NCBI GenBank assembly: GCA_947179485.1
Contig: OX359247.1
Location: forward strand, 58,625,131 to 58,689,130
Origin: Allacma fusca
Lineage: Eukaryota > Arthropoda > Collembola > Symphypleona > Sminthuridae
Direction of reading: 5' to 3'
Length of the DNA: 64,000 nucleotides
Position 1 is the stretch's first letter. Each line of letters starts with the position of its first letter. This document shows, one piece after another, positions 2,252 to 61,370 of the stretch. The notes below the pieces were generated by a model, which searched no databases, had not been told where the DNA came from, and saw only the letters and a list, made by a program, of their open reading frames with translations. The translations under genes and the position numbers were made by a program.

Positions 2252-2520
2252 CAGGCCTGGCATTCAAGTTCAAGTAAAACTTGACAAGTTCGGGTCAAGT
2301 TCAAGTTCAAGTCAAGTTCGGGTTACAAGTTAATTTGAACTTGACACTGAAATCTCAAGTTCGGGTCAACATGAAATTTGAACTTGATTTTAAGGCTCGA
2401 ATCAAGTTCATGGTCAGGTCTTCATTATAGACTTGACATCAATGCCATGATCAAGTTCGGATCACATAACCCCAAAACCATGAACATGAACTTGACTTTT
2501 CATGGTCAAGTTCTCATTCT
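2252..2520. repeat. Left subterminal CAAGTTC array of element B
   Basis: About fifteen copies of a 7-12 bp motif (TCAAGTTC, often followed by GGGTCAAG or preceded by ATGGTCAAG) occur in both orientations within 270 bp of the terminus. Clustered subterminal motifs of this kind serve as transposase binding sites in characterised hAT elements such as Ac; that role here is inference. Confidence 0.7.
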
Positions 2521-3027
2521 CATATAATACGCTGTAGATAATCGTTCTTATGCAGATGTCCTTGCTGAAGCTGTAAACGCTAATTTAAATCACAGCGTTT
2601 TCGCGTGCAAATGCTAGACCGGTATTTCTGTGTTTTCAACGAGCAACGTGCTCCGGGCTCAAATATTACAAGCTAAATCCTGTTGTATTTTCTTCTTCAC
2701 AACATCTTTTCAATTTTAACTTGATTTAAATTTTTGAATAATCATATTTTAAAAACAACTGGAAAATGAGCACATCTGAAAAGTCTCAACAGTGCGAAGA
2801 AGATGCTGATCCTGGAAGTCTAACTGCATCAAGTAGCCGGAAAAAATGACCTAACCCGGTCAAAAATTTCATGCATAATTATGCACATGTTTTACTCTAG
2901 CCGGGATTTATGTACATTATTATGTATACACGTACCATAATTTTATATGCATACCGTGTATGCATAAATAATTTGGAAATAACAAAATGCAATGATCTTA
3001 TAATGTCTACCGTAGCAATTATTGAAT

Positions 3028-5857
3028 TTATTCAGATTCTACAACATTGGGTAGCAGTACAATTTGAGTTGGGACATTGTTAGAAGGAACATTAGTGTAA
3101 TAGCAACTCTCTTCAACTGAGCTAGCCTGAAAGAGTTTTATTTTATTCTCTAATCGTACACTAAAAGCAGCAGAGTAGCTTCGCACTAACTGGGTAGTTT
3201 TCAACTCGGTACAAAGCAAAAAGCAACGTGTTTGGCCTAGTAAAAATGTAACAAGTATGATGGATTTAATCAGAAATATTTGGGATTTAATTTGTATCAC
3301 ACATGCACACCGTTTTGACGTAATATTTGATTGAATACCTAAATGTATATTATTAACATAACCTCGTTTATATGAATCGCAAGCAACAACTTCATCTGAG
3401 TAACCGAGTTTACGGATTAATTTTATTTCGTCCAAGTTTAAAATGTAAGGCCTGGACGCTCCTAACAATAGGCATCCCCATGAGTCTACTTTATACTTTT
3501 CTACCATTCTTCGCTTCTCAATAAGTTCCTCATAAAAATGGAGCGCAATTACATTTTTGAATAACTTGAAACCCGTGGTCAGTACATGAGAATTTTCCAC
3601 TATTTTATTGCTTATTTGGGCTTCAATTTTGTAGGACGCTTTGAAATATTTCAATAAAATCCCATTAAAATTTTCAAAATGAAACAATGAGTAGTTCCAC
3701 AGTGGACCCCAATTTTCAACACATTTTGTGGCATGTATTAGCAAGTGCACATTAAACGAGCAGAACGATGTTCCGTAGAGTCCTTCAACATTCTCAACAA
3801 ACGTTTTTAAGGTTTCACGGATTCCAGAAATGTCATAATTATGAACCCGCATTCCCAGAAGCAAAAATACTGGCTGCACAAATTTCAGAAAATGGACAAA
3901 ATAAGCACGGGGAAGAACATCCTTAAGAATAAATGGCGAAATAAATGTCCAGATACGCCATTCGCTTGACTTCCAGTGCTTACGTTCATCCAAGACTCGA
4001 ATAGTTCTGTCTGAAGTAAATGGCATTCTCCATTTCTCAATTCGGCCGTTTAAAGTTTGTAGCTTATTACCAATATAAAATTGCCTGTCTTTATATTTTG
4101 GGTCCAACCATGCATTGGTAAACGTTCGTGAAACTCCCAGTTCTATAGTATGCATATAGTCAAATACAAAACCCGAGACAATATCAAAATGTTTCAGCAG
4201 TAAAAGAGCACTAGCGTCTTGAATTCCATTAAAAGATTTTGTGGACGGATTAAGTTTTATTTGATCGCGATATAATTTCAAATCACTAACAAATTGATCT
4301 TGATTCCTGAGTTCGGCTGTGTGTGTTCTGTATATCCATTTATGGGATGACTCATTTTCCCAGAATGTTTCCCCCTTTTCCAAGCACCAAGGACAACCAA
4401 ATGATCCATTGAATTGGTTGATGCCTTGAAGAGAACACCGAGCGACTGAATCTGCTGCCAGTATGGGAAACAACACATGACTTGTTATACACTCATTAAC
4501 ATTTCGCCATTTAATACCCTCAGCAGTAACCTTGTTAAGCATTTGCACAATCGGGGGTAGAAACACGCGCATACAAGGCTTATCTTTACCAAACCACAGT
4601 GCTGCCACAAAAGTATATTTTCTTCTGAGTTTATAACTCAGCTCGTTTATGGATAAGAGAAAGGGTGATATCGAAAAATTGGAAGAGCGATAGCACGGAA
4701 CCCCATCACAATTCATTGTTGCAGTGAAGTCAAACGGTAGCAAAGGCAGCTGTCTGTATTTTTGCCCGTGAAATATTTCTCGATACGAGGTTTGGTCTTC
4801 ATTTGCGTCTGTTGTTCTTGTTTTCAAATTTTTGAACAAATTCGAAGATACCTCTTCTTGTTGCAGAATGCTTTCCATGGACTTATGTACGTCAAATGTA
4901 ATAAAAAAATTGTTTCTGGTGGATGTGTGGCATTTAGGGCAAATGTTTCCATTTTCCGGCATCAAATTCTTGCAGGACTTACAATAGTAGTGGTAGTTCA
5001 GGGACTCATATGTAATACTCAGTTCCTTCTTCAGCAGGAATTTTGAAGATGGGAAGTTGCAGCCAGGACAGAATATTCTGATTAAATCCAGAAGATGCTG
5101 CACCCCGTCACTGGTCAGTCTATGCCTTAATAAAAACGCGAACACTAACAATGATCCTTCCTTAACAGTAAGATTTGGATGAATATACGGTTCTTCCTAA
5201 AAATATGCATATAATTTTGGTAAGATTTATTATGAAAGCTTATTTGGCAATGAATGTACACATACATATTATAGATTTTCTAAATGGCATTTCGAAAATG
5301 CAGCTATACCTCAGAAAATGCTGTTGAGTCTGTGGGACATGTCTCACCAGAGTCACTTCGTGTTTCTTCGTTGTTTGTACTGTCACCATCGGTAAAATCA
5401 TCACCTGAGAGGCAATCATTCTCCTAAAAATTCATAAAAAATTTAAACGCGTGAACGCAGATATTTGTTCCAAATTATTCTGTGTTGGAAAGTTAAACAA
5501 TGTAAAATAAGCAGTCACAATTTTGTCATTTGTAAGCGAAGCATCATCATTGAACTCTTGTTCCACATATTGTATAGCTGATTCACATGCCTCGAAACGT
5601 CCTGCGGTTTGGGATCTTTGAAGCCGTTTCTGAAATGTTAATAAATGCAATTCCATGGAGAATTAATTGTAAGAATATAATATGCATACAAAGTAATTGA
5701 AAGTTTTAAATACTATAATTACTATTATAATAACATAAACACGACTACACACCTTTATATTGTACTTGGTTTGCCTTGGGACTCCTTTTTGAATCTGAAA
5801 TACTGGGCTTTTAAGATATCTTTTATAATTTTGACGGCCCATTTCTTCAAAATTCAA
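3028..5857 (-). CDS. Tnp2-like (CMC/EnSpm-type) transposase
   Basis: This is the catalytic protein of element C, expected to cut and join its terminal inverted repeats in the nucleus. The main exon is 5196-3028. Numbering from codon 5151, it has paired CxxC motifs (CPGC at 28, CKSC at 57, CPKC at 71) suggesting zinc binding. It then shows the Tnp2 block CDGVPCYRSSNFS (Asp149), AADSVAR (Asp234), GCPWCLEKGE, DYMH (331-334, the D(2)H signature) and FHFENFNG (Glu493). The three acidic residues are candidate DDE catalytic residues. Upstream exons are supported at 5423-5310, about 5629-5435 and 5857-5753, in phase except that the donor near 5440 is not resolved. The N-terminus MNFEEMGRQNYKRYL is proposed from the 5857 ATG. 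No stop interrupts the main exon, so the protein may be functional. Confidence 0.8.
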
Positions 5858-6394
5858 ACTGTACAGAATCTATTTTATTATTTAAAACCATATAGTTTTC
5901 TAGGTATAAACAATCGTTGTAGAGGCAGAGTGAACCAAGTTGATTGTCGGTAAGAAGCAATATGAACTAATTTTCGTCTTGGCTGAAATCAAGGTTAATA
6001 ACATCGCCGCAAGTTAGAAATCAGAATCGTCTAAGTACAGTGCAAAGGGTCTCCATATATTTCAGTTGGTTTCAACTTTGCCCACTTTAAGCAAGATAAA
6101 AAGCCGTCATTTTGCTTCTTATCTAAAATGCACTTGGTACATTTTGGCTCTATAACGACCGTCTACTCTAAAGGTGCTTATTCTTTCTTTGCCAAACAAG
6201 GTTTACGCGCTTTTTAATTTCAGTTATTATGTTGTATGCTGCAGTCACGCAGGCGCCAAATTTTGGCAGGTATCAATATTCGGTGTGTAACGGCCTTGTT
6301 GCATCATTCAGTGGGTCCACATTGCCACATAGCAACACAATATTTCCTTTTCATTAAATTTTCAGGCATATTTTTAGGCAGAAGACAAGGGAAA

Positions 6395-7965
6395 ATGGTC
6401 TTTTCGGAACATTTATTGGTTTTTTGGACTGAGGAAAATAAGTATTCTTGCATTGCCCGTTCCAGTATTGCGAATGGATTGTTGAGGAAAGAAAGTGATG
6501 AAAACCTTTTTGCACTGCCTGAAGTTGAAATATCTTTCAATCGAAAAGTGTACTCCGCGCAAATAATTTATGGAGGTGAGCGTTGTGCTTTATTTGTATC
6601 AGTACTGAAAATTTAATTATTAATAATATATTAGTTAATGTTGCGTTACGTCCGTGCATTACTTCGAGATTTCCGATTGACTAAAATTTATATGTACATA
6701 CTTGAAGACGTTGCATGTAAAATAATAATTTTCGTTCAACCCGTTTCTTTTTCTCAGGCCCAAATCCAAAAAATGTGAACTCATATTTAGATTCATTGGG
6801 CAAATCTCATGGTCATTTGAAACCTCAAGAAACTCGGCAATCAAACACAACAAAGGTAAGTTGCAGTCTTAAATAATAGATCTGCAGTATTAATTTTAGT
6901 AGTTTGATTTTAAAATGAAATATTAGTAAAAATATTTTATATTTCTTGTTCAGAAAGGGAGGAAACGCAAATCCGAAGACACTGGAGCAGTCATTGATGG
7001 GATTATCGAATCACTGGATCAGAATCTTGCACATGAAGCTCCTCAACCAACCTCATCCCATGGCGATATCGATACTGATCACAATTCTTTGGATTACGAA
7101 AAACGTATTAGAAAATTAAGCAAAAAATTGAGGAAGGCTGAATCTACAGTTGACACGTTGAGGTCTGAACTCTCCGAGGAACAGTCCCTTCGAGAGAAAT
7201 ACCAATGTAAGTGTAAACCATTACATTTGCTTTAAAATTGTATTCAAGGAATTTTAATTTTGTACCAAGTTGAACAATAATTCCTACTTTGTTTCCATTA
7301 GGCAAATCCAAAAACATGCGCAAGAAGCTCCTTAAATATCAGCAAGATAGGACGGTAGTATAAAAATTAACAATAGCAAACTTTAACTTAAAATTAAGTT
7401 TTATGCAATATGATTTCAAATTGCCAATCGTTTAATGTTATTACTTATATTTTTATGACGTGTAATGATTACATGCATTTTAATTTAATTTAGACGCTGG
7501 TAGACATTGGTAGTGGAGTAACGTTGAACTCGGCTCTTCTGGAAAGGGCAAAAATATTTTCATCTTCCCCAGCCGTTTTGGGTCGCAACATTTTTCGTTT
7601 GGCTTTCGAAGAGTCTGAAATTGTAGGGAAGTCCTTGTTTGGTCGGGTGTGTAACGCAAATAAGCAGCTTCCACTTAAACCTTCTGTCGACGCCATCAAA
7701 CGAGATGCTGTTATTAGTAAGTATCATAAATATATTAAAAGCACTTACTAATAATTATTTACTGACCGAATACATTGTAGTCGTGTATGGCGTTTAATTT
7801 ACAACAATCAACATCATTTGTCTAGGTTACTGCTCATCGGTTTTGGAAGAAGATTGCAAGCAGTCCGGAACAAAATTTGATAAATTGTTAATTCGTAGTA
7901 AAATCTCGAAATCTCTGGGAGAGTACATACGTGAGGTGACGTATAAAGCCCAGAAGACAGACTAG
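6395..7965 (+). CDS. BEN-domain protein encoded inside element C
   Basis: Six exons join in frame at good GT-AG sites: 6395-6575, 6758-6855, 6954-7206, 7302-7354, 7494-7716 and 7826-7965. They give about 315 residues. Order: an N-terminal segment (MVFSEHLLVFW...), a basic patch (KGRKRKSED), a charged coiled coil (KRIRKLSKKLRKAES through SELSEEQ), then a C-terminal region resembling a BEN domain (GRNIFRLAFEESEIVGKSLF, then KQLPLKPSVDAIKRDAV). BEN domains bind DNA or chromatin proteins. The gene starts about 540 bp from the divergent transposase gene and lies wholly within the element's TIRs, so I read it as a second element protein, perhaps a DNA-binding accessory factor. The BEN call is from pattern memory; a host gene captured by the element is the alternative. 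Confidence 0.65.
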
Positions 7966-8412
7966 ATTGGTTCAGACGAACAGTAATTTTATAATTTATG
8001 TTCATGCACTATATACTTATTATCATTCAATTTTAGTATGCATTTCTTGAAAACAAATAAATAACATTTGATTATGTAACCAACATGTGGTAAAATCATT
8101 TGCATTACTTAATTTTAACTCTATTTTTATTGTTCAACATATTAATATTTATAAATTTTCATACTTACAGAATACTAACAACATATGCATAACAAATGAC
8201 AACAATCGTTCATAATTTTTTATGCAGAAGGAATGCATAATAGTCTGTGCATAAAAAAGCGTCCCAAAAATATGTATAAAATCGTTTGCAAAATATGCAC
8301 AGAGACCTGTACATAATTATGTAGCCAGATTTCCGACCGGGAAGGTCCACAAGCATTTCACATTTTGCGATTCTACAAAAAAATACAGCTGCAAACACTG
8401 CTCGTAAGTGTA

Positions 8413-8458
<46 letters not shown>
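8413..8458. repeat. (TA)n microsatellite
   Basis: An uninterrupted TA dinucleotide tract of about 46 bp sits in the intron of the element B BED-finger remnant. It creates short IYIYIY ORFs on both strands that are not genes. Confidence 0.95.
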
Positions 8459-8461
<3 letters not shown>

Positions 8462-8769
8462 GTTTCAGTTGTCCTGGCACAGACCTACTAACTCCTAAAA
8501 GAATGTTAGAAGACATCATTTGTGTTTGTCTGTGCTTGAAGGGATGGTTGAAATTCAAATCTCAAACCAATTTTGATGAAATCCATGCATCATTCAAAAA
8601 ATTCTACGGGAAATCTAGTTATTTTTATATTCTCTTATTATAAGTTTTATCAATCATTACTCCTAAATTTTGATATTCAATTTTAAAAAATGAATGGAAA
8701 TTAAATCTCAGATAATTTGTTAGCCTTTCTAATTATAAGTATACATATAACACTATAACTAGAAATTCA

Positions 8770-9009
8770 AGTCCATGGTCAAGTTCATGGTCAAGTTCAT
8801 GGTCAAGTTTATGGTCAAGTTCATGGTCAAGTTCCATTCATGGTCAAGTTCGCCGAAATTAACTTGATTATGTGAACTTGATTACTCCGGTTCGTACCTA
8901 CTTTTAAAAAATCAAGTTCAAGTTCGGATCTTAATTATGGTGATATAATCAAGTTCGGGTCAAGTTCAAGTGCGAATCATGAGTTGAACCGAACTTGAGG
9001 CCAGGCCTG
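8770..9009. repeat. Right subterminal CAAGTTC array of element B
   Basis: It contains at least six near-tandem copies of ATGGTCAAGTTC at 8775-8850, then scattered CAAGTTC/GAACTTG motifs up to the TIR. It mirrors the left array at 2252-2520. Confidence 0.75.
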
Positions 9010-10034
9010 TTGCTAACAGGAATTAATAGCACGAACGATACAAGCTTGAATAGGTCAGGACATTGATCATTCTTAAAAAACTCAGCCCACTTTGCACCGA
9101 CCCATCTCACGATCACCGATCACGATAAAAAACTCAAGTTTGACGAAGTGAGCAAAATTCATTGTACAGTTGGTCCTCGTTTAATTTAATACCGAGTGCA
9201 ACGGCAATATTTAGTAAATAAGCCATTGATACTAAGAATTCCTCTGATTTAAAATTTAGTAGTTCCATTTTCAAAAAAAATTAGTATCACTGAAATCAAA
9301 ATGTCTGCTTAAATGGGTCTGCAGTGATTTCAAAAAAACCCAAAGCTTCCAGTTCAAAGCGCTTTTGCATTGTTGCGGGGGTAAATTTTTCAGAATTGCA
9401 TACTTCCGTAAAATTTATAGTATCGGTTTACAGAACTTTCCATAAGAGATTTCATTAGGGACTGTGTACTAATGACATCACTCCAAATTGCCCACTTTTG
9501 AACACCCCTTCCCCAAAATCACATCAAATCATATTCTGTCAACCCCACCCCCACCATCTGACGTCATGTGAAATACTCATGTATTCATTAATACAATAAA
9601 GGCTGCATCCTTGATTAAACCGGGATTTAGTAAAATATTAATAATTTGTGCATATTGTGTGGCTGGATTCCGATGTCTGTGAAAGCCATCAAAAAGATTT
9701 GTAACTGAATTCTAAAATATCTAAGATTACTGCTTTTACGTAGTACAATAAACCCTCGTTATTTTTGTATGATGTCAGACAACACTTGCCCCTCCCCTCC
9801 TCCTGTCACCCGAAGTCACTCATTCTGCAACTCCCCATCCCCTCTAAATGTATGACGTCACAGCATTAGTACTCAGTCCCTTATGGCGTAAACTTCCGTA
9901 GAAGTACAATCTTACACTCCAACATTAAAATGGGCGAATTCATTTATTGTAAAATAATGTGCACAATGTATATATACATAGGTAACATTACATTAGGCAT
10001 TCTACTTTCGCAGCAACTTCATTGATGTTATGAC

Positions 10035-20183: not shown

Positions 20184-21390
20184 CTAGAAAATTATTAATA
20201 ACGATCTGGACATTCGGAAAGTCAGTAAAAGAATTACCAAAGGAGTTGTCCGCTTAATATGACCAGCTAGCTTTAATCCAATTGGCATTAGACGCAATAG
20301 CCGCCTATCCTCAGGTAGCGCCGTTTTCTCCAACGAAGCAAGAAGGTTTCTAGAAATTTCAAAAATCTGAGCCAGCAAGAAATAAAAAACAACTTCTACA
20401 AAAGCTAACCCCACGGCCCAGAAGAGAAACGCAAGAGTTGTAATACGAAGCATTTGGGCATGAAGCCTAACAGGAATGTACATAAAACATAAATTATAAA
20501 AAATCCAGCTGGCTGCTGTGATAAGTAAGAGATTTTTAAAACCAGTGCAAAAATAGCTATTTAAAATTTGAAGTTGTTTGTAACAAGTAATGACTTGATT
20601 CCTTCTCATGTTAAATTTCACGGTAGCAACTTGAACAGTAAGTTCATGTTTTAATATTCGCGATGACTTGAGATCTCTTAAAATTAATATAGTTCTTATA
20701 CAATACGACGAAACAATTATTACAACAAGAATAAAAAAGCTTGGAGCAGGGAACAAACAGAATGTTTCTAAAATAAGTAAGAAAATCAGACTATGCATGG
20801 ATTGCCATTTCGGATTCAAGTAAGCATAGTAATATCGTTTGCTTTTAAGCTGTACCAACAATAGAGCCGCAGCAAAGAATGATGAAATTATTATAACAAC
20901 TGGCAATATTTGACAAAACATTCCAAAGATGAGGTCCAGCTTAGAATTACCTAATTGTTGGGTCGAAAAATACAATTAAAAAACTAGTACAAATAATTGT
21001 TATTATTTGTAACATGAAACAACTGAAGTGAATAAATACAATACCTGATTTGTTCAATCGTCCCACAAGCACGTTGAATATGAAACAAATATCCTGGGAC
21101 TTAAAATATATTAAAAACTGGATGAAAAGGCTCTCAAAATGTGCATATGAGAAGCACAAATCCAGTGCAATATTTTCTTTTGACTTTGTTATTCGAAACA
21201 AATTCACGGTCTGCAATATAATCTTTGTAATTAATAGGAAAATATAAAGTCTCCAGAAGAAACGAAAACGTACAGAAAGGTTGCAGAACAATTTGTACTC
21301 ATCCTTGCGCCAAGCGAGTGGAATTAGACCCAATGCATGCATGAAGTTGAAGTAAGACCCTATATAGCCAATAGTCCTCTTTGACAACAT
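20184..21390 (-). CDS. Gustatory/odorant receptor-like seven-helix protein
   Basis: Two exons, 21390-21045 and 20950-20184, join in phase 1 (CAG|GTATTG donor, AATTAG acceptor) to give 370 residues, the usual size for insect-type chemoreceptors. I chose the ATG giving MLSKRTIGYIGSYFNF because the 44-kb paralogue starts at the same place. Features typical of the family include an early P-L-x-W (IPLAWRKDE), a hydrophobic helix pattern with about seven membrane segments, a KSQDICFIFN loop before the exon 1/2 junction, and a polar stretch (ALPEDRRLLRLMPIGLKLAG) before the last helix. Such proteins form ligand-gated cation channels in sensory neurons. Ligand is unknown. No internal stop is seen. 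A further small 3' exon cannot be excluded. Confidence 0.7.
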
Positions 21391-23130
21391 TACGCAGTGC
21401 ACTCCGACTGTTGCCTTTGTCTCATACACACGTTGACAAAAAATACCCAAATAATTCTGCAAAAATATTTGCGATCTATTTCTTCAAACTAATACATACT
21501 AATTTGTGGGAATTCAATGAATTTGGGGGAAAAGAAGAGAGTAGCATCACGAACTATTGCAATGACAGCAGAAATATATAACTTGTGTTCATTTGCACAA
21601 CGGGTTGTAGTAAGAAACCGTCGTATAGGATTTTAGTCACTTTTTGATATATTTCTGGATTTAATCTATCGACTTTCGTTTTTCGTACACCAATCATTGC
21701 TGTTAGATAATTCCGTATATATGTCTTCGTAAGATATCTTGTAATAACTGATTTCGGGATTAGATTACAGTATCCAACCACTTGTGCAATCATAGATAAC
21801 GGCTACAAAGCTAATTTGTATCAATGATGATTGCTTTACTTTGCTTTTCACGTCCTGTGGGTATACCTGAAAATAATACTTGTCTTCCGGGTGTATATAA
21901 TTGAATAACAACCTTTCGAACGAGTTATACCTGATTGTCATTGCTTTTTAAAGCACTAAAATTCCAAAAGTGAAATGTTATTTTGTTAATCTACTAAAAC
22001 GCCAATTAGTTGGTAACGACAATTTGATTCAAAGATATATTTATGTACCGTGTGTTTAGAATTGGCTATTGCATCTACAAATCTTAAAAGCAGCAAACGA
22101 TTATTGGTGACAACAAATTAAATTAATAATATTTACTAGTAGCAGTACGAAAGCAGCAAGTGCTAGCATCAAGTATGTAATTATGGTGTGTTTAGTTTTA
22201 TTATGTATTAACAAATTCAAAAATTCTACATTATAAAAAGGAACTGGAAATACGGTTTTCCATTTAGATATTGAATTCTATTAATAGTGAATCTTTTATG
22301 CATGTGATCTTAATCTTTGCAACCGATTATTTACGAGCCCTTCATAACGATTCAATAAAGTAATAATTAAAATCATGTAAATGCCAGAAACTACTACCAG
22401 TATATCAGGCTTAGAATAAAAAAGTCTCCATGTACTGCGTGTACTATTTTTAAACGAACTAGGATTTTCCTCTCCAGTGTATTCTAATACTTAATTACTC
22501 TGTTCATGAAGGTTGTTTCTTTCGTTGAACCTAAACATCAGTTTCTGCCATGAACAAAACTCTAAAATGTTATATCGTATTTGTTGTTTATAGTTTTATT
22601 TGTTTCTATGAGAAAAACATTTTCCTCAAATGTTTTTAAATAACAATTGTTATTGTCTGGCACACCAGGCAGCACCTTCAACATCTTGTTCGCTCTTCTC
22701 CACGACCATGACAACATCGAAATCTCTTGTCGTAGATGTATGTACCATATAACTAGAGCACGTGTACCACTGTAGGGCGTACATACGTGTGAGAAGTTGT
22801 TCTTAAAATTGAAAGACTAGTTTCAATCCTCTACGACATCACAATAATAATCGTATTAATGTTCCAATTAAGTCCTTTAAACTAAAGAAATAATAATGCA
22901 CGAGAGAAAGGAACGATCATCGGGGAAGAGATGAGATGATTAACAATAAAATGAGCTGTAAGGGAGTGACTCTTATTGTTAGTAAAGTGTTTGAAAGTTA
23001 ACTATTTATTACTCAACAATAACAATTGTTCTCTACGAAATATAATAAATTTAATAATCAAAATGAAAAGTGACACAAATGTATTTCCTAACAACTAATT
23101 GTAAGTCTTATCTCGACTGTTGCTCCAGTT
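21391..23130. other. No recognisable gene
   Basis: Upstream region of the 20-kb receptor and AT-rich intergenic sequence. Short ORFs only; I see no clear promoter motif or repeat. Confidence 0.4.
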
Positions 23131-32599: not shown

Positions 32600-33412
32600 A
32601 CACAAATAATTTACTGGAACATTCATGCACTCAGCAGCAACACTGCGATGAAAATCAACGTTATAAAAAAATATGATCCTGAAATTATTTGTTTCTCGGA
32701 AACCTGGTCAAAACATAATTCCATCGCCGAAAAGCAACTTGAATACTCGTGCACTACAATTGAAGTTAAACGACAGAAGCGCAGAGGAAGACTAAGTGGA
32801 GAAATGCTGATCCACATTCATAAAAGAGTCCAAGCAATGACCAGAATTGCCCAGAAACACTTTAATTTTATTGATATTAAAATATTTCAACATAACAAAA
32901 ATTTTAACTTATTTTTAACATACTCTACTCCACACGAAGACCTCGACGAAATTTTAACCGACTTCCTAACAAATACTAACTTTAATCACTCAATCATAAT
33001 TGGGGACATAAATATTCGTATCGGAGAACACATTCAAGCAGAAATCGACACAAACAATAACAACATCTCCAGAAAAAGGACTTTAAAGGACAAAGTAATA
33101 AACAGAAGAGGTAAGCTGACCAAAGAATTATTGAAAGGGAATCAACTAACAGTAATCAACGAAAGAACAGCCAATAACCCACTCGGTCAAACAAAATTTC
33201 ATGCAATAACAGGAACAACAGTAAAAGTATGCCTGGCAAGAATATACTCAATAGAAAACACCAGGGACTTAAAACTAATCGATTCCCATGAATCTGATCA
33301 TCTTCTAATCCGACTAACCACTGCGAAACCCGCCAATCCACACTCAAACAGCCTCAGTATCGACAGCATAACATTAAACAACACTGCAAAGCTAGTGAAA
33401 CTGCAATTTTGA
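32600..33412 (+). pseudogene. Non-LTR retrotransposon ORF2, endonuclease domain only
   Basis: The frame starts YWNIHALSSN and continues DPEIICFSETW, IIIGDINIR and SHESDHLLIRL. These correspond to the N-terminal, catalytic GDxN and C-terminal SDH motifs of the APE-type endonuclease that opens ORF2 in LINEs of the I/R1/Jockey type. It lies about 250 bp past ORF1 in the expected order. No reverse transcriptase follows: at 33395-33412 the sequence passes directly into the tandem repeat. The element is therefore truncated or disrupted at its 3' side. Confidence 0.8.
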
Positions 33413-36400
33413 TACTGCAAAACTAAAACTGCAATTTTGAAACTGCAAAACTGAAACTGCTAAACTGAAACTGCAAAACTAAAACTGCGAAACTGAAACT
33501 GCAAAACTGAATTTGCAATTTTGAAACTGAACAACTGAAACTGCAATTTTGAAACTGCAAAACAGAAACTGAAATTTTTAAACTGCAAAACTGAAACTGC
33601 AAACCTAAAACTGCGATTTTGAAACTGCCAAACTGGAACAGCAAAACTGAAACTGCAAACCTGAAACTGCAAACCTGAAACTGCAAAACTGAAACTGCAA
33701 ACCTGAAAATGCAATTTTGAAACTGCAAAACTAAAACTGCAATTTTGAAACTGCAAAACGCAAACTGCAAAACTGAAACTGCAAAACTGGAACAGCAAAT
33801 CTCAAACTGGAATTTTGAAATTGCAAAACTGAAACCGCAAAGCTTAAATGGCAATTTCAAAACTGCAAAACTGAAACCGCAAAACGTAAATTGCAGTTTT
33901 GAAACTGCAAAACTGAAACTGAAAAACTGAAACTGCAAAACTGAAACTGCGAAACTGAAACAACAAAACTGAAACTGCAAGCCTGAAACTGCAAACGTGA
34001 AAATGCAATCTTAAAACTGCCACTGAAACTGCGATTTTAAAACTGAAACTGCAATTTTTAAACTGCAAAACTAAAACTGGAATTTTGAAACTGCTAATCT
34101 CTAACTGCCATTTCGAAACTGCTAATCTCTAACTGCCATTTCGAAACTGCAAACCTGAAACTGCAATTTTGAAACTGCAAAACTCTAACTGCCATTTCAA
34201 AACTGCAAAACTGAAACTGCAAAGCTTAAATTGCAATGTGAAATTGCAAAAATGAAACCGCAAAACGCAAATTGCAGTTTTGAAACTGCAAAACTGAAAC
34301 TGCAAAATTTAAACTGCAAAGCTGAAACTGCCATTTTAAAACTGCAATTTGGAAACTGAAAAACTAAAACTGCAATTTTGAAACTGCAAACTAAAACTGC
34401 AATTTTAAAACCGCAAAACTGAAACTGTAAAACTTAAATTGCAATTTCGAAACTGCAAAACTGAAACCGCAAAACTCAAATTGCAATTTTGAAACTGCAA
34501 AACTGAAACTGCGATTTTATAACTGCAAAACTTAAACTGCAATTTGAAACTGCGAAACTGAAACTGCAATTTGAAACTGCCAAACTGAAACTGCAATTTG
34601 TAAACTGCAAAACTGAAACTGGAATTTTGAAACTACAAAAATGAAACTGCAAACCCTAAATTGCAATTTGGAAACTGCAAAACTGAACCCGCAAAACGCA
34701 AATTGCAATTTTGAAACAGCAAAACTGAAACTAAAATTTTAAAACTGCAAAACTCTAACTGCCATTTCGAAACTGTAAAACTGAAACTGCAAAACCTAAA
34801 TTGCAATTTCGAAACTGCAAAGATGAAAACGCCAATTTGAAACTTTAAACTGAAACTGCAAAACTGAAACTGCAAACCTGAAAATGCAATTTCAAAACTG
34901 CAAAACTGAAACTGCAAAACCGAAACTGCGATTTTGAAACTTCAAAATTAAAACTGCAATTTTGAAACCTCAAAACTAAAACTCCCACTTTGAAATTGCA
35001 AAACCGAAACTGATATTTATAAACTGCAAAACTGAAACTGCAAAATTTAAACAGCAAACCTGAAACTGGAATTTTCAAACTGCAAAACTGAAACTGCAAT
35101 TTTGAAACCTCAAAACTAAAATTGCCACCTTGAAATAGCAAAACTGAAACTGCAACTTTAAAACTGCAAAACTAAAACTGCAATTTTGAAACTGCAAAAC
35201 AAAAACTGCCGGTTTGAAACCGAAAAACTGAAAACGCCAATTTTCAAACTTCAAACTGAAACTGCAAAACTAAAACTGTAAAACTGAATTTGCAAAACTA
35301 AAACTGTAAAACTGAATTTGCAATTTTTAAACTGCAAAACTGAAACTTGAATTTTGAAACTGCCAAACTGAAATTGCAAAGCTTAAATTGCAATTTCGAA
35401 ACTGCAAAACTGAACCCACAAAACAAAAATTGCAGTTTTGAAACTACAAAACTGAAAACGACAAATTTAAAAATTCAAACTGAAACTGCAAAACTGAAAC
35501 TGTAAAACTCAATTTACAATTTTGAAACTGCGAAACTGAAACCGCAAAACTCAAATTGCAATTTTAAAACTGCAATTTTAAATTTGCAAAACTAAAACTG
35601 CAATTTTGAAACCGCAAAACTTAAATTGCAATTTCAAAACTGCAAAACTGAAACAGCAAATCTCAAATTTTAATTTTAAAACTTAAAAACTTAAACCGCC
35701 AATTTTAAAACTTCAAACTGAAACTGCAATTTTGATACTGCAAAACTAAAACTGAAATTTATAAACTGGAAAACTGAAACTGCAGTTATAAAGCTCAAAC
35801 TGCAAAATTAAAACTGAAATTTTGAAACTGCAAAATTAAAACTGCAATTTTGAAACCTCAAAACTAATACTGCCACTTTGAAATTGCAAAACTGAAACTG
35901 CAAACTGAAACTGCAAAACTAAAACTGCAATTTTGAAACTGCAAAACTTAAACTGCCATTTTGAAATCGCAAAACTAAAAACGCCAATTTTAAAACTTCA
36001 AACTGAAACTGAAAAACTTAAACTGCAATTTTGTAACTGCAATTTGGATACTGCAAAACAGAAACTGAAATTTATAAACTGCAAAACTAGAACTGCCATT
36101 TTGAAACTGTTAAACTTAAATTGCAATTTTAAACCTTCATTACTGAAAACGCCTATTTTTAAACTGCAAACTGAAACTGCAAAACTAAATCTGCAAAACA
36201 GAAACTGCAAAACTAAAACTAAAAACTGAAACTGCGAAACTGAAACTGCAAAACTGAAACCGCAAAACTGATACTGGAAAACTGAAACTGCATAACTGAA
36301 ACCGCAAAACTGATACTGGAAAACTAAAACAGCAAAACTGATTCTTCAATTTTCAAACCGCAAAACGTAAACTGCAATTTTTAAACTGTAAAACTGAAAC

Positions 36401-38585
36401 TGCAATTTTCAAACCGCAAAACGTAAACTGCAATTTTTAAACTGTAAAACTGAAACTGCAATTTTCAAACCGCAAAACGTAAACTGCAATTTTTAAACTG
36501 TAAAACTGAAACTGCAATTTTTAAACTGCAAGACTAAAACTGACATTTTGAAACCGCAAAACTTAAATTACAATTTCAAAACTGCAAAACCGAAACCGCA
36601 AATCTCAAATTGCAATTTTAAAACTTAAACACTTAAACCGTCAATTTTAAAACTTCAAACTGAAACTGAAAAACTTAAACTGCAATTTTGTAACTGCAAT
36701 TTGGATACTGCAAAACAGAAACTGAAATTTATAAACTGCAAAACTAGAACTGCCATTTTGAAACTGTTAAACTTAAATTGCAATTTTAAACCTTCATTAC
36801 TGAAAACGCCTATTTTGAAACTGCAAAACTAAAACTGCAAAACAGAAACTGCAAAACTAAAACTAAAAACTGAAACTGCGAAACTGAAACTGCAAAACTG
36901 AAACCGCAAAACTGATACTGGAAAACTGAAACTGCATAACTGAAACCGCAAAACTGATACTGGAAAACTAAAACAGCAAAACTGATTCTTCAATTTTCAA
37001 ACCGCAAAACGTAAACTGCAATTTTTAAACTGTAAAACTGAAACTGCAATTTTCAAACCGCAAAACGTAAACTGCAATTTTTAAACTGTAAAACTGAAAC
37101 TGCAATTTTCAAACCGCAAAACGTAAACTGCAATTTTTAAACTGTAAAACTGAAACTGCAATTTTTAAACTGCAAGACTAAAACTGACATTTTGAAACCG
37201 CAAAACTTAAATTACAATTTCAAAACTGCAAAACCGAAACCGCAAATCTCAAATTGCAATTTTAAAACTTAAACACTTAAACCGTCAATTTTAAAACTTC
37301 AAACTGAAACTGCAATTTTGATACTGCAAAACTAAAACTGAAATTTATAAACTTTAAAACTGAAACTGCAATTTTGATACTGCAAAACTAAAACTGAAAT
37401 TTATAAACTGGAAAACTCAAACTGCAATTTGGAAACTGAAAAACTAAAACTACAATTTTTAAACTGCAAAACTAAAACTGCCATTTTAAAACCGCAAAAC
37501 TGAAACTTTAAAACTTAAATTGCAATTTCGAAACTGCAAAACTGAAACCGCAAAACTCAAATTGCAATTTTGAAACTGCAAAACTGAAAACGCCAATTTT
37601 GAAACTTCAAACTGAAATTGCAAAACTGAAACTGCAAAATTTAAACTGCAAAGCTGAAACTGCAATTTTAAAACTGCAAAACTTTAACTGAAATTTTGAA
37701 ACTGCAAAACTAAAACTGCAATTTGGAAACTGCGAAACTTAAACTGCCATTTTGAAATCGCAAAACTACAAACGCCAATTTTAAAACTTCAAACTGAAAC
37801 TGAAAAACTGAAACTGCAATTTTGTAACTGCAATTTTGATACTGCAAAACAGAAACTGAAATTTATAAACTGCAAAACTAGAACTGCCATTTTGAAACTG
37901 GTAAACTTAAATTGCAATTTTAAACCTTCATTACTGAAAACGCCTATTTTGAAACTGCAAACTGAAACTGCAAAACTAAAACTGCAAAACAGAAACTGCA
38001 AAACTGAAACTAAAACTGACACTGCGAAACTGAAACTGCAAAACTGAAACCGCAAAACTGAAACTGCAAAACTGAAACCGCAAAACCGATACTGGAAAAC
38101 TGAAAACGCAAAACTGATACTGGAAAACTGAAACAGCAAAACTGAAGCTTCAATTTTCAAACCGCAAAACGTAAACTGCAATTTTTAAACTGTAAAAATG
38201 AAACTGCAATTTTTAAATTGCAAAACTAAAACTGCCATTTTGAAACCGCAAAACTTGAATTACAATTTCAAAACTGCAAAACCGAAACCGCAAATCTCAA
38301 ATTGCAATTTTAAAACTTAAAAACTTAAACCGCCAATTTTAAAACTTCAAACTGAAACTGCAATTTTGATACTACAAAACTAAAATTTAAATTTATAAAC
38401 TGGAAAACTAAAACTGCAATTTAAAAACTGCAAACTGAAACTGCAAAACTAACACCGAAAAACTGAAACTGCGAATTTTTACACTGCAAAACTGCAACTG
38501 ATATTTAAAAACTGCCAACTAAAACTGCAATTTTGAAACTGCAAAACTTAAATTGCAATTTCGAAACTGAAAAACTGAAACCGCA
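33395..38585. repeat. 5.2-kb diverged tandem repeat (AAACTGCAAAACTG / AAACTGCAATTTTG)
   Basis: A 13-16 bp unit alternates between GAAACTGCAAAACT and GAAACTGCAATTTT forms with many point changes. Higher-order structure is clear. A block starting TAAAACTTCAAACTGAAAC at 35991 recurs at 36648 (657 bp later) and, diverged, at 37782. Inside the first two blocks a unit of about 57 bp (CGCAAAACGTAAACTGC...) occurs three times in a row (36357-36500 and 37003-37150), and once more near 38160. Minus-strand ORFs of up to 185 codons (SFAVSVLQFQFCSF-type) are translations of the repeat and not genes. Confidence 0.95.
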
Positions 38586-39072
38586 AAGAAAGAAATTAAT
38601 GAAGACCGTAATTAATTATTTGGGTTACATACTGTCAGCCCCACTGAATAAAGATGAATCAAAGCAAAGTTAAGGCTGTCAAAGAATTTCCGTCACCAAA
38701 TACCCCAAAGGTTTTAAAAAGGTTTTTAGGCATGACAAGCTGGCTCAAAGAATTTATACCGCATCAAAGCACAATTGCGGAACCTTTAACCAAATTAACC
38801 AGAAAAGGTGTCAAGTGGAACTGGACACAGGTTAAAAAACAAGCTTTTGAAAATCTTAAGAATGCAATAATTTCTCAGAGAGTATTGTCATACCCAAATT
38901 ATCGACAAAAATTTATTCTCGCTTGTGATGCCAGCGATCATGGAGTAGGAGCTATGTTGTTACAAGAATATGGGACAGAAAACACATTATTGCGTTTTGT
39001 AGTGCAACCTTAAACAAAAGTCAAAGAAACAGATCAGCAATGGAAAGAGAACTCCTTCCAATATTATATGCC

Positions 39073-43650: not shown

Positions 43651-44763
43651 TTAGCATATTATTAGTAGCGGTCTTGACATTCGAAAAGTCAGCAAAAGAA
43701 TTACCAATGGAGTTGTCCGCTTTATATTACCGGCAAGTTTTAAACCAATTGGCATTAGGCGCAATAGCCGTCTATCTTCAGGTAGAGCAGTTTTCCCCAA
43801 AGAAGCAAGAAGGTTTTTTGAGATCTCAAAAATCTGAGCCATCAAAAAATAAAAATCAACTTCCATAACAGCTAACTCCATGGCCCAAAAGAAAAACATA
43901 AATGTTGTAATGCGAAGCATTTGTGCATGAAGTCTTATAGAAATGTATACAAAGCACAAGTTATAAAACATCCAGCTCGTTGCTGTAATAACCAAAAGAT
44001 TTGTAAATGCAGTTCCAAAATAGCAATTTAAAATTAGGAGTTGCTTGTAGTAAGCAATTACTTGTTTCTTTTTGGTGTTCAATATAGCATTCGCAAATTT
44101 AGCCCTAACCTCTGATTGTAATATTTGCGATGACTTGATATCTCTTAAAATTAATATTGTCCGTATTGAGTACGATAAAATTATTATTACAACAAGAATA
44201 AAAAAGCTTGGAGCAGGTAGCACACACAAAGCTTCTAAAATAAATAAAATAATTAAATTTTGCCTGGATTGCCATTCCGTCCAAAAAAGAGATCCAGCTT
44301 CGAAAGACAATTAGTAGTCCCTGATTTTAAAACCAAAAAAACAATTTATAAAAATAATTTAAACAATTAATTCTTGTACGTTGACAAATTAAGAGTAAAC
44401 ATTTTCAGCTACCTGATTTTTTAAAACGTTCCAAAATCACATTGAAGACGGTGCAAATATCCTGGGACTTAAAATATACAGTACTAAGAATTGAATGAAC
44501 AGGCTCTCAATATGTGCATATGACAAGAATAAGTCCAGAGCAATATTTTCATTAGATTTTGTAAGTTGAAACAAATTCGATGTTTGAATCCCTATTTTTA
44601 CAATTAGTAGGAACGTATACAGTCCCCACATGATATAAAAACGTAAAGAGGGGCTGTGGATTATTTTTTGTTCATCCTTAATCCAAACGAGTGAAATTAG
44701 ACCGAATGAATGCATATAGTTGAAATAGGACCCAGTGAAGTTAATAGTCCTGTCTGATAACAT
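43651..44763 (-). pseudogene. Dead paralogue of the 20-kb chemoreceptor
   Basis: Exon 1 (44763 to about 44416) starts MLSDRTINFTGSYFNY and matches the 20-kb receptor, but a 5-nt insertion near 44480 shifts the frame before the DIC-x-x-FN loop. Exon 2 has lost its AG acceptor (AATTAG in the intact copy, AATTGTC here). Immediately after SKLDLFFG about 38 codons present in the intact copy are deleted. The rest (44275-43651) is well conserved, including TALPEDRRLLRLMPIGLKL and the last helix. Three independent lesions mark a pseudogene. It lies about 23 kb from its intact relative, in the same orientation. Confidence 0.8.
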
Positions 44764-46238: not shown

Positions 46239-47232
46239 TGAACCGTCGTTTCTAATTTTTTTTAAAACATCATAAACACATATTTATTGTATTCCCGAAC
46301 GTCGATATTGCGTCATTAATGGAATGAAGAGTGACGTAGTGTTGCAATAACTCCATGCGAGACAAGGAGACTAATACAAATACTTGTGGATATGATGTCT
46401 GAAAGTTTTTACTAAATATCGGGCTCAACGAGAGTCAGTGAGGTAGTGAAAATTAAAATGTAGCGATTCAAGTAGGGACAATGACTACTGAGAAAGGAAA
46501 AAAGTAATCAGCTTAAATAGAATACTGTAAGCTTCTCTGAGTTTTTGCTGGAATATAAAATAGCACGATATGTACAAGAGATATGCTTCCCCACTTCTAC
46601 GCAGTCCATTACAAATAATAATGGTACTTACAATAGAATTATTAATACACTGAGGATCTCCCGTAGATTAAACTGCAGGTAGGTTTGTTATCACAAACTA
46701 TTTGGTTGCAATATTCATTAGGCGTAATAATACATGCACACGTGTTTAGAATGAGCCTGACAGCTTAATTCTTATCAAAAGACAATAGATGGACGAAATT
46801 TGCATAAATGCCCGTCTATATCTTTAAATTTGCACCAAAGAAAACTACTTTGGACCCTCTTTATGCAGTCTTTCGAGCTGGGTCTTCAACAATTTATTTT
46901 ATTCCAACTTGGTTCAAGATAGAAGCAAATTAGAAGTATCGCGTGAGATCAAAAATGTTACATCAAATTTTGTTCAGAGATTGTCAAAATTCCTTTAGAA
47001 GTCAGTATTTGATTACAAGTCCTGCTTTATTTGTGACGGTATCACAGCTGTAACGCCAAGCAGCTAATTAAACTTGTATAAAGGGATGACTGATTACGTG
47101 CCGTTATAACCGCGGTGTCAACTGGAATATCTGTAAAATGACATCGATTCTTACAACCTTGTGGAAAGCAAGCGTTCTTGGGCTTTGTCGTTCTTTTATT
47201 TGTTGCCCTATATAGCATTCCCTGGTCTTGCA
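46239..47232. other. No recognisable gene; upstream region of the 47-kb receptor
   Basis: Mixed AT-rich sequence without ORFs carrying a motif. The reading frame of the receptor extends upstream to 47161 without an ATG, so the gene start was placed at 47233. Confidence 0.4.
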
Positions 47233-48921
47233 ATGATCTCGGCTGCAACATTTCGGGAGCTGGAACGATATTTTCGAATTACATCGAAATTTCAAAATAT
47301 TCCATTCGACTGGAGTGCAAAGGAACGTAAACTTATCCCAGTGAATAAAAAAATACGGCATCTGATTTTTCGACTCCTAACATGCTACAATTTTATAATG
47401 TCAATATTTTTTACGAATCAGATGATAACAAGCTTCTCAGTAAACTCAGTCACCCCTATCTTGGAAAAAATCCTCGGAGTCGTTTACTTCATATACTACA
47501 TCCCTTTGACAATCCAGTACATCAACATGTGGAGAAAGCAAGCCAGTCTGGCAGAACTTTACAATAATATCATTATCTTCGATAAGACTGCAGACAGGGA
47601 TTGGCTACAATGGCAGGCAGTTTCACTGCAGGGAAAATATAAGGCCACTAATATCACGGAAACAATTAAAAGAAAATCATCGGATGGCATAAGTTTCCTC
47701 TTCAAGCTGGTAAATTCAATGATTCTACCAAGTGCGGGCTCTTTTGCTATGATGCTCCTTCTTCAACCGGATTCCAGCTTGTTTCTTTACAGTGCTCTTC
47801 CCAACGCATGGAAGGGTTATCGGGCTTTGTTTTTGTTTTATCTTCTCGAAAATTATGTATTGATTTCTGGATGGACCTTGTACACTTTCTACTGGTACAT
47901 GATTTTTATGTACGGGAAAAGCTCCACCTATTGGTTAAACTATATTCGGTAAGGAGTCGTTCTAAACATTTCCACGAAATCTAGGACATAGTCGTGATCT
48001 GGGAAATTTCTGGCCTTTATTACTGCATGAAATTTTTTATTGTCAAAAGAATAGTTGGCAAAAGTTTCCCTCGTTTTACTAAGTACGCATGTATAAGAAC
48101 GTTTACCTTTTAAGGGCCAAAAATATTTATAGACATATCCGTTTACATCCATGCTTTTTCTAGAATATACGCAACTGCTGTATGAAGAGACTGAACTCCA
48201 GTACTATAAAGTTATGTTCTTATAAGGGGAAAAATTAATTTGTTATATAGTAATTGTGTTCAGTTACTTTTGTCCTTGTAAGTTAACATGGTACAGTATT
48301 GTAATAGCATCTTTTTAAAAGTATTGCACTGCATATAATATTTGAAAATAATAATGAATTATTAAAGGGGTCCTGCTTTGATGTTTAAGAACGAAAAACT
48401 TTCCAAAGGTTTTTCTTAACAAAACTTTTATCTGTAGGACAAGGATTGCGGATAATCGCTTTGGAAGTACCCCAAGGGAATTTGGAAAAAGCATCAGATT
48501 TTACAAAATGATCCAAGTCTTGACGAACCAAGTGAACTACTGCTGTCGCTATATGTTTATTATCCCAATGAAGACGATTAGCATGGGAAACCACACGTTG
48601 TCACAAGTGGTGTTAATTCGCTACCATGATGCCATGCCTGCTCCATATTTACTTGGGTTTCTGTCACTCATCGGCTTCCACCTCATGGCAGAGTTGATCA
48701 CTTTTCCCGCCCTCGGAAGTGTCAGGGAAATGTCTGTTGAGATCCGTGAGTTCGCTTCTTTTGGGAGAAAGAAAGATAAAATGGAGGAGCGATCTCTAAA
48801 AAGTTTGGCCCTTAATGAAGTTAAAGTTATGGACTTCTATGCATTCGGGAAACATACACCGTTAACTGTCATTTCAATTATTATTTCTGCTACAGCGAAT
48901 ATTTTGCTTCTCATTCGTTGA
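47233..48921 (+). CDS. Gustatory/odorant receptor-like seven-helix protein
   Basis: Two exons, 47233-47948 and 48438-48921, join through a CG|GTAAGG donor and a CTGTAG acceptor to give about 399 residues without stops. The ATG chosen gives MISAATFRELERYF, then NIPFDWSAKERK, matching the family pattern of a short cytoplasmic leader and P-x-x-W before helix 1. About seven hydrophobic segments follow. The junction reads YIRTRIADNRFG, and the C-terminal part has GRKKDKMEERSLKSLAL before a last helix (PLTVISIIISATANILLLI). The product should be a chemosensory ion-channel subunit in sensory neurons. It belongs to a different subfamily from the 20-kb receptor but resembles the 13.9-kb fragment. ORFs inside the intron and on the opposite strand look spurious. 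Confidence 0.7.
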
Positions 48922-57776: not shown

Positions 57777-60370
57777 TTACCAACATACATCTCCATACAC
57801 AGGTCTTCCCAAGCTCTCCAATACCGAAACAATCTTCAATTTGGTCGCTACTGTGAGAGGGTGGTAATCACCCAAACTTTCTCTTCTTCGTTCCAAAACC
57901 TTTGAGTACAAACTAAGTGCGGCCTTGAGCTTCCCCATATTGAAATGCAACGATGCCAAATTGCTCTCTGTAGCAACTACCAAGGGGTGATCGACTCCAA
58001 GTTTATCCGCGGCTACGTACAGAGCTTCTGAGTAGAGCTCAAGAGCCTCCTCCTGCTTACCGATCTTCACGTATGACATGGCCATGTTGTTCTGAACAGT
58101 GAGGATAGTAGAGTCATCAAAAGTTCGGATTTTCGTCTGAGATTTCAAAATTTCAGAGAAGAGTTCGATCGCCTTCTCATAGTTACTTTGCATGAAGTAC
58201 GCCGCCGCCAGATGACCCTGAGTTAATAAGGTTAAAGGGTGGTTAATACCGAAGGATCTCGTGGCAGTTTCAAGGACGTCTGCGTGCAAAGCAGCAGCCT
58301 CTTCAGTCTTTCCTTGAACGAATAAAATTGCAGCGAGTTCATTTTGAGTTCGTAAGGTGTCAGGATGGTCATGACCGAGAAGTCTTGCCCTTCCCTCCGA
58401 AGCTTCTGAATATAACTCTAGAGCTTTCCCACGCTCTCCTTGTTTGTTTAAAACTGCAGCCATATTGCTCTGAGTATCTAACGTATCACAATTATCTGTC
58501 CCAAATAAAGTCTTGCGCTTTTCCAACACGTCTGCGAAAATTTCCAACGCATCGCTGTTCAGATCTTGCTTTGCCAGGATCGTTGCGATGTTATGCTGGA
58601 CGCAGAGCGTTAAAGCATGGTCCAAACCAAGGTGTGTACTTGCGTTTTGTAAAATCTCGAAGTACAGTTCCAAGGAATCCTCAAATTTGTTCAGATTTCT
58701 CAGGACTGTGGCAATGTGGTTTTGAGTTTCAAGGATCAGTTCGTGATATGGTGGGAGGATTTCTTTCTCAAACTCCAATATTTTCATAAAGAGATCGTAA
58801 GATTCTTCGAAGTGAATATCTTCTAATTTCGAGGCAACGAATTTAGCAAAGTTAAGATATTCAGGCACAGCGTACGTCTTTAAGGCATTTTCGAGATGAA
58901 CAGCGCAGGCTAAGCCTTCCCGGAAGCAATGTGAGTTCGGTTCTTTACTTAGCAGGAAGTTCTGGACACTACACACGGCTTGACGAAGAGCGTTGACTTC
59001 CAAATCGTTTGCGCGTAGAGTTTCAATTGTAGCTTGTTGGATCATCCGATGGATTTGAAAGTAGGATTTGAAGTCGATAATGAGAGAGTACTTATTAAGA
59101 AGATTCAATGCTTTGGTCAGGGCGCCCTCTGTGGATCTGGGAAACATTGAGAACAAGAGATCTTTAGGAATTATGACGGGTGAAAGATATGCCATGGCCT
59201 CCATAAATTTCAAAGCCAGCTGCCCGCTATTATGTTTTATAAGGTGCTCAAAGATTATATTTGTGATGATGAAGATCGATGCATCTGTTGAAGAATTGAC
59301 AGGACGATGTTTCATATACTTTTGAACACCTTCTTCGTAAGTTTCGAGGAAGTCGTGCATTGTGTAGCTATCTATACTTTTAATTACTGCGATGATTAGC
59401 TGAAGCCCTAACGGAAGCCTGCCACAGATCTCTGCTAGATTGAGTGCGTTCATTTGATTTTGTTCGGAAGGTTCGACTCTTAACTGACCCAAAAGTATGT
59501 CCACGCACTCTTCCTTTGACAGGGGCTCCAGAAAAAATAAACCTTGGCTCCAGTTTGTATTTCTTGAAGCGATGAGTACGACTGGACTGATTCCTTTGGG
59601 CGGCAAATTCAAAGGTAAAAAATTCTGAATGTCGGAATTAGGTTGTTCTTGAGACTCCAAAGACTTTGTGTTATCAAAAACTATTAAGCAAGGTTCAGTG
59701 CAGAGTTGTTCGTAAATCCCTTTCAAAATTGTACTAAACAACAGGTATTTTCCGTTTTCATCCAATAAATACATTTTCAATTTGTTTTCCGCTAGTCTCA
59801 TGAAGCAATTTTTGATTGTAATGTTATTTTCTGCATCGATCCAAATGATGTGTTTATACTTCTTCGCATGCTTTTGCACGTACCTGCGCATGGTTTCTGT
59901 AGTACCGATCCCGCCCAGTCGGTTTGAATCGAAAGCGGGGCAGAGGACAGTTATCAGATCTCCGGATCTCTTGCTTTCTTCAACAAGATGATGGAAATCT
60001 TCAAGGATGTCTTCTTTTCCATAAAATGCTTCATGACAGTTACGGGTATTGAAGTGAATGGGTTTGGTCTCTTTCCTATGTCTTTGGTTAGAGTATAACA
60101 TGGAGTTATTGCGGGATATTTGAATGACATTGTTGGACGCGCCGAAATGGACTCTGTTGCGCTCTTTTACTGCTTTGCTCGGGATGGGTGCAGTGGCCTC
60201 ACTAAATGTGATTAGATCGTTTGGATTGTTGTCTTCGATGATATCCGGAGGACCCCGGCACAAGAATCGTCGGATCCAGGTGAATTTCTGTAACTAAAAT
60301 TCCATTTCAGCTTTACAAATTCTACCGAAAGTGTTAGACAATTTCTAAGAAAACAAAAGTCATTTACCAT
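57777..60370 (-). CDS. STAND NTPase: NB-ARC-like domain with C-terminal TPR repeats
   Basis: The main exon is 60287-57777. The frame has no ATG upstream in it, but a three-base exon ATG (60370-60368) followed by GTAAATG splices in phase to the CAG acceptor at 60288, giving 837 residues starting MKFTWIRRF. Domains: a linker of about 85 residues; an NB-ARC-like ATPase with P-loop LGGIGTTE (about 125-132), Walker B CLIVFDNT (200-207), SRNTNW sensor-like motif (about 242-247) and GRLPLGLQL (290-298); a helical middle; then seven full and one partial 42-residue TPRs of kinesin-light-chain type (TQ-N-LA, EALELY-E-LE, LG-DHP-T) to the C-terminus. STAND proteins act as oligomerising switches, and TPRs bind peptides. 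The P-loop lysine is threonine, so ATP hydrolysis may be lost. No effector domain is recognised. Confidence 0.85.
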
Positions 60371-61035: not shown

Positions 61036-61370
61036 CGGAGTTAGCGCTACAGCTGGCTGAGGGAAACTTATGGAACTTATACAAAACTTTATAAGTTTAC
61101 GGAATGGACGAAACTTATACAACATCTATATATCGTCGACAAAACTTGCTAACCGGCTAAAATAAAAAATGCTTAGAATGAAGACCGGCTATTTTGTTTT
61201 CGCTACAAACTCTAAAGTGAAACCCGGCCATAATTCACATTAGCAGTATATCATCCCAACTTTTCCACAATTCCCCTCCTCTTCCCGTCCACTTACAATC
61301 CACTACCCCTCCACTTCACATTCAATTACATTCCACTCCACTCGCCCTCCACTTTCCCTTCAAAAACATT

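Follow-up and report, generated by a model that had tools for sequence, protein, structure and literature searches.

The stretch under study, called the window below, comprises 64,000 nucleotides of the Allacma fusca genome (contig OX359247.1, positions 58,625,131 to 58,689,130) and contains at positions 2855-8341 a complete TRC-type, CACTA-related transposon of 5,487 bp. The element carries two predicted genes, one for a Tnp2-type DDE transposase and one for a protein assigned by homology to the BEN domain, and its ends contain copies of a 10-bp palindrome, TTRTGCAYAA, here each with one mismatch. We consider it rather probable that the BEN protein serves as a TNPA-like partner of the transposase, which binds the subterminal repeats and assembles the transposition complex. 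In the proposed mechanism the transposase, encoded on the minus strand, would cut at the CCCG ends and insert the element with a 2-bp duplication. The BEN protein, encoded on the plus strand and probably dimeric via a coiled coil, would bind arrays of the palindrome in the outer ~250 bp of both ends and unite the ends and the transposase, as TNPA does in maize En/Spm, and the element would depend on both genes.

The genome searched comprised 393 Mb in 91 contigs. The ends of the element read CCCGGTC..GACCGGG, at 2855 and 8341, with AA on either side (2853-2854 and 8342-8343), and the terminal inverted repeats occupy 2855-2870 on the plus strand (CCCGGTCAAAAATTTC) and 8326-8341 on the minus strand (CCCGGTCGGAAATCTG in inward reading). 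The first-pass annotation had proposed these limits and the CCCGGTC start of the repeats; both were borne out at each end, by the AA duplication and by empty sites. The joined flanks, 332 bp with a single AA, were found at full length and with zero differences in at least two places (40 of 129 candidate places of the surrounding repeat scored), and since such empty sites exist elsewhere in the genome, the insertion and its 2-bp duplication are directly documented. Among the 15 distinct insertions for which both ends are known, 14 had a perfect 2-bp duplication, the exception being L048, where it reads AT/AA, or AAT if taken as 3 bp. The duplicated sequences vary (AA, GG, TT, GT, TA, AT and GA). 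All ten elements examined had CCC at their ends, those of L040, L043 and L044 not being independent cases because they were located by searching for CCCG; L046, with one end found, was left out.

Full-length matches to the element in the genome were L002 at 99% and L003 at 93%. A relative, L041, is an element of 5,781 bp present in five copies (L050-L054) with at most one difference between copies, which occupy four different settings, two of the copies having the same 200-bp flanks. These near-identical copies suggest very recent or current transposition. Another 17 or so places share no more than the terminal 128-156 bp with the L041 family, and are either non-autonomous relatives or ends of other elements; among the terminal-only matches L060-L062, L061 and L062 retain four palindrome sites at that end. 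The window element is itself nested in a second young repeat, at 2254-9013, with ends CAGGCCTGG..CCAGGCCTG, which appeared hAT-like by eye and whose 40 scored places matching the empty site had identities of 97-100%.

Both gene models are predictions from GT/AG borders and conserved relatives. The two genes begin about 550 bp apart in the middle of the element, each running outwards, and the region between their starts (5843-6394) is presumed from this head-to-head layout to be a two-way promoter. The predicted transposase has 827 amino acids in four exons on the minus strand: exon 1 at 5753-5842 with the start ATG at 5842, exon 2 at 5519-5629, exon 3 at 5310-5423, encoding an acidic linker, and exon 4 at 3028-5196, encoding the catalytic core and ending in the stop codon at 3028-3030. 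The features CDG, AADS, D(2)H (as DYMH) and FENFNG, on which the gene was first read as a Tnp2/CMC transposase, are all there. The window copy scored 22.4 bits against Transposase_21, under the Pfam cut-off of 28.6, while L040, to which it is 37% identical, exceeded that cut-off with 46.1 bits, and L039 exceeded the cut-off of DUF1258, the Mirage group (39.4 against 33.1 bits). Since the members divide between both profiles, with 5/10 matching Transposase_21 (best 46.1 bits) and 5/10 matching DUF1258 at E <=0.01, the family sits between the two. Residues D163, D248, C267/C270, H483/H487 and E507 were invariant in 10/10 aligned relatives and by their positions correspond to the CMCT-type DDE, C(2)C and H(3-4)H pattern. 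A zinc-ribbon-like stretch, C71/C74/C85/C88, was likewise invariant in the aligned transposases. The transposases of more distant groups were 33-37% identical to that of the window. The transposase profile compared with the PDB returned seven chains, every one an E3 ligase and none better than E 0.81, and no relatives were found in viral contigs scanned with the window transposase and with the transposase alignment.

The second gene, on the plus strand, is predicted to encode 315 amino acids in six exons. Exon 1 (6395-6575) encodes a conserved N-terminal domain of ~60 amino acids and is followed by exon 2 (6758-6855), exon 3 (6954-7206) with a basic stretch (GRKRKS) and a coiled coil judged by eye, exon 4 (7302-7354), exon 5 (7494-7716) with the main part of the BEN domain and exon 6 (7826-7965) with the end of the domain and the stop codon. 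The spliced model agrees with the earlier description of a divergent six-exon gene lying wholly inside the element. The BEN-like domain proposed in the same annotation stood in the homologues and not in the window protein itself, which had no Pfam match. The Pfam BEN profile (PF10523) was matched by 4 of 11 family members; when six homologues were scanned singly, L044 (27.2 bits) and L043 (23.4) passed the cut-off of 23.2, L039 (16.0) and L041 (15.8) fell under it, and L040 and L042 gave no match. A six-frame search of the genome with PF10523 showed other element-borne genes reaching 25.2 bits, and a gene beside a more distant transposase reaching 28.7. The BEN family profile matched the PDB structures of BEND6 (E 0.17) and Bsg25A (E 0.79) weakly. 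A single-sequence AlphaFold model of exon 5 was poor (59.5 in pLDDT, the model's predicted local accuracy), and among its structural matches the NACC1 BEN domain ranked second at E 5.1, which is not significant. The BEN assignment appears sound on the strength of homology, though the window copy's own score does not bear it out. At some of the genome's Pfam BEN places the lists compared showed no transposase match close by, and these may be host BEN genes or parts of more distant elements.

That the BEN gene belongs to the element, as had been supposed, was examined by looking for copies lacking it. Of 80 related transposase places, 74 had a BEN exon in head-to-head orientation; the 80 came from two merged searches (64 and 62 rows) and represent 79 copies, three second fragments having been removed and one retained. 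Each search scored ~62 of ~1,250 candidates, so that the sample consists of the nearest relatives, and the BEN places compared with those 80 were 91 chosen rows, 19 of which had no scored transposase within 9.5 kb. Two of the six places without BEN were L049, where a broken-looking BEN gene was seen on opening the locus, and C8:32839379, a copy matching the reference element only from base 810. The BEN gene is under purifying selection, and so is the transposase: between the window and L003 the ratio of nonsynonymous to synonymous substitution rates (dN/dS) was 0.16 in BEN exons 1, 3, 5 and 6 (262 codons, exons 2 and 4 being omitted), 0.09 in the BEN domain and 0.19 in the transposase core. 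Synonymous divergence (dS) was saturated for most pairs, and only the comparison of the window with L003 was clean (dS 0.11-0.18), that with L042 being marginal (dS 1.3 to 2.6, exon 1 saturated). The BEN and transposase trees were concordant on groups A and C of the relatives, which in the BEN tree (74 columns) were supported at 100/100 with group B unresolved. The co-occurrence, the purifying selection and the persistence of the pair down to 33-37% transposase identity indicate that the BEN gene is an integral part of the element.

The palindromes emerged from unsupervised counts of short words. In group B GTGCACAA occurred 39 times, in 10/10 ends and with 0 occurrences in 23,848 bp of interior, and in group A ATGCATAA occurred 41 times, in 14/14 ends and with 0 occurrences in 9,181 bp of interior; each of the two is part of TTRTGCAYAA. 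The ends of ten elements, 6,000 bp together, contained 18 perfect TTRTGCAYAA sites, and the 48,437 bp of their interior and the 16,797 bp of their flanks contained none; shuffling the ends 200 times gave 0.34 sites on average and never more than 2. As the motif was derived from groups A and B, part of the enrichment in these two is circular. When one mismatch was allowed, the counts rose to 63 in the ends, 6 in the interior and 7 in the flanks (shuffled ends, n=200: mean 4.3, maximum 11). Group C (L047, L048) and L065, which were not used in the choice of the motif, still had 6, 3 and 2 sites at this level. In the window copy the ends contain six sites with one mismatch each (2869-2878, 2879-2888, 2958-2967, 8183-8192, 8220-8229 and 8245-8254), and the interior contains one. 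A site was found 24-25 bp from the end in 10 and 103-104 bp from the end in 8 of the 20 ends, among which the window and L003 are near copies, and these positions were common to different groups.

In two elements whose BEN genes are divergent the palindromes were different. The more distant L063 (group D) contained in 300 bp six sites that match CCTATAGG with at most a single mismatch, and 0 in the remaining 3,567 bp, and L064 (group E), whose BEN gene passed the Pfam cut-off, contained TCCCATGGGA or CCATGG, with three CCATGG in 150 bp; both words were picked from the very single ends that supplied their counts. In the 300 bp inspected in L063 and L064, TTRTGCAYAA was absent even when one mismatch was allowed, and CCTATAGG and TCCCATGGGA were absent from the 20 ends of groups A-C.

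There is a precedent for recognition of transposon ends by a BEN-type domain, since in Tn3 TnpA a BEN-like fold recognises the transposon inverted repeat (PMC9579193). The BEN domain of NAC1 binds the palindrome ACATGT (PMC7764960), BANP binds CGCG and NACC1 binds CATG (PMC11472053), and palindromic sites are what is expected of a dimeric binder. In maize En/Spm, TNPA binds the subterminal repeats and transposition needs TNPA together with TNPD (PMC2613891). We infer that the BEN protein, rather than the transposase, is probably the palindrome binder, that it probably dimerises and that it may be needed for transposition. The sites are located near the 3' end of either gene and a long way from its start, and a role in assembly of the ends is therefore likelier than promoter control.

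Several observations weigh against this reading. The 315-residue protein of the window itself gave no match to PF10523, and neither the window copy nor L003 has a perfect palindrome. Groups A and C differ in BEN, but their palindrome is nearly identical; CCTATAGG and TCCCATGGGA each come from one end of one element, and L063 also has one CCATGG while L064 has one near-match to CCTATAGG. SmTRC1 of Schistosoma was reported with different second proteins (PMC1636069, as far as covered here). Furthermore, BEN was found at 7 of 39 Tnp2-profile places among those listed, compared with 71 chosen BEN rows. All seven genes were head-to-head with the transposase, three of the places being already among the 80, and one of the remaining 32, L063, had when opened a divergent BEN-like gene, recognised by eye and with the same type of N-terminal domain, which gave no Pfam match.

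The alternative that survives best is that the transposase binds the palindromes while the BEN protein does other work, such as countering host silencing or regulating expression. The transposase, which has the invariant C71/C74/C85/C88 stretch, also changes between groups and could be the binder; most of the nine human BEN proteins are chromatin-related, according to the parts of PMC11472053 covered here. However, every site type is palindromic, which fits a protein that binds as a dimer, and binding to palindromes is an established property of BEN domains. In addition, the sites are situated where the two genes end and not near their 5' ends, and the interior of the ten elements has 0 perfect sites and 6 with up to one mismatch. 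We regard this alternative as unlikely, though by no means remote. A role of the BEN protein in directing insertion, through anchoring of the complex at sites in chromatin, is considerably less probable: BEN proteins bind chromatin and copies of the element are found at many sites, but the sequence of the duplication is variable. That the BEN gene is a passenger taken from the host by chance is hardly credible, for although many chromatin proteins of hosts contain a BEN domain and some Pfam BEN places were without a neighbouring transposase match in those lists, chance capture is contradicted by the co-occurrence and dN/dS, and the gene keeps the same position and orientation in elements with 33-37% transposase identity to the window, is under purifying selection and has a tree concordant with that of the transposase on groups A and C.

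Among known systems the closest are the animal TRC elements, SmTRC1 of Schistosoma and those of Tribolium and Aedes, which have CCC ends, 2-bp duplications and a Transposase_21-type transposase (DeMarco 2006, PMC1636069). Because the window element matches them in all three respects, it is best filed as a TRC element, and the non-CACTA ends are not new and do not define a group of their own. Its size is near that of SmTRC1 (4.5 kb) and the Tribolium TRC (5.2 kb), the Aedes TRC being 9.2 kb. The window element differs in its BEN gene, of which the portions of the TRC account covered here make no mention, and the word subterminal is absent from that paper as a whole; the extra proteins of SmTRC1 arise by splicing, and the authors found nothing similar to them (PMC1636069). 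Spongebob, or EnSpm-4N1_HM, of Hydra and insects is also alike in its CCC ends and 2-bp duplications, with a length of 5,836 bp, and was filed as TRC; its transposase was not readable, and no second gene is described in the sections covered (PMC4298943).

Maize En/Spm and the plant CACTA elements share a Tnp2-type transposase accompanied by a second protein, and subterminal repeats, but they have CACTA ends, a 3-bp duplication (Tgmt*) and alternative transcripts of one unit, and the parts of the source covered do not describe TNPA as a BEN protein (PMC2613891). Membership in plant CACTA proper was rejected on account of the CCCG ends and 2-bp duplication of the window element. The likeness to Mirage and other DUF1258 transposases (PMC3985635, covered in part), where L039 exceeded the cut-off and 5/10 members matched, was drawn from the transposase profile and is only partial, as 5/10 members matched Transposase_21. 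The C(2)C and H(3-4)H motifs between the second D and the last E are shared with Plavaka and other CMCT lineages, but Plavaka ends are TGT..ACA or CATCA..TGATG, most CMCT ends are CA..TG, and the extra fungal gene is TET/JBP (PMC12730594, covered in part). Membership in Plavaka was rejected, as the CCCG ends are wrong for it and the Pfam scans gave no match to its profile, and membership in KDZ is likewise not indicated, those scans having given no match to the KDZ profile. Pfam includes profiles of both. Tn3 TnpA, whose DBD1 has a BEN-like fold with a DNA-binding surface that reads the inverted repeat (PMC9579193), is bacterial and differs in that this domain lies within the transposase; no separate gene with palindrome arrays is described in the parts of that account covered.

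Elsewhere in the window some further features were recorded. A long intron-free reading frame of 838 amino acids at 57777-60293 on the minus strand contains many tetratricopeptide repeats (TPR). A perfect tandem array with an 11-bp unit occupies 61369-62812 (131 copies, 100% matches) and is open in several frames, and a degenerate array with a 14-bp unit in ~371 copies lies at 33396-38587. Chemoreceptor-like reading frames were seen by eye at 20184-21483 (minus), 43651-44310 (minus) and 47137-48921 (plus); only the last had a profile match, a weak one to 7tm_7 at 47137-47952 (22.1 bits, under the cut-off), and a likeness between 20184-20975 and 43651-44310 was visible by eye.

We found no account of a BEN gene beside a Tnp2-type transposase in a literature search that covered open-licence papers; an earlier description is possible among Repbase entries, which lay outside that search. 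None was described in PMC5704228, PMC4574769 or PMC9579193, as far as these sources were covered. The nearest known case is the BEN-like domain within the bacterial Tn3 transposase (PMC9579193). The CCC ends, the 2-bp duplications and the Tnp2 transposase are already known, and what is new is the 10-bp palindrome in the ends, together with the other palindromes of the two elements with divergent BEN genes. That relatives with different BEN genes differ in these repeats suggests that animals have an equivalent of the maize Spm system with its two proteins. The 2006 TRC paper left open what takes the place of TNPA in animal elements, the second proteins of SmTRC1 showing, in the part of it covered here, no similarity to other animal or fungal sequences (PMC1636069). 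The second gene described here has a putative DNA-binding domain for whose relatives structures have been solved, and the sites proposed for it are readable from the ends, so that the pairing of protein and site is directly testable. If the reading is true, it would provide paired proteins and sites for assays and a better annotation of TRC elements, and would caution that the BEN gene families of animal genomes may in part consist of transposon genes. In a wider sense, we give even odds to the view that TRC-type transposons are machines of ancient origin built on two proteins, with the BEN protein co-evolving by group with the palindromic subterminal repeats and filling the vacant TNPA role in animal CACTA-like elements; such transposons could then also be a source of BEN genes for animal genomes and viruses.

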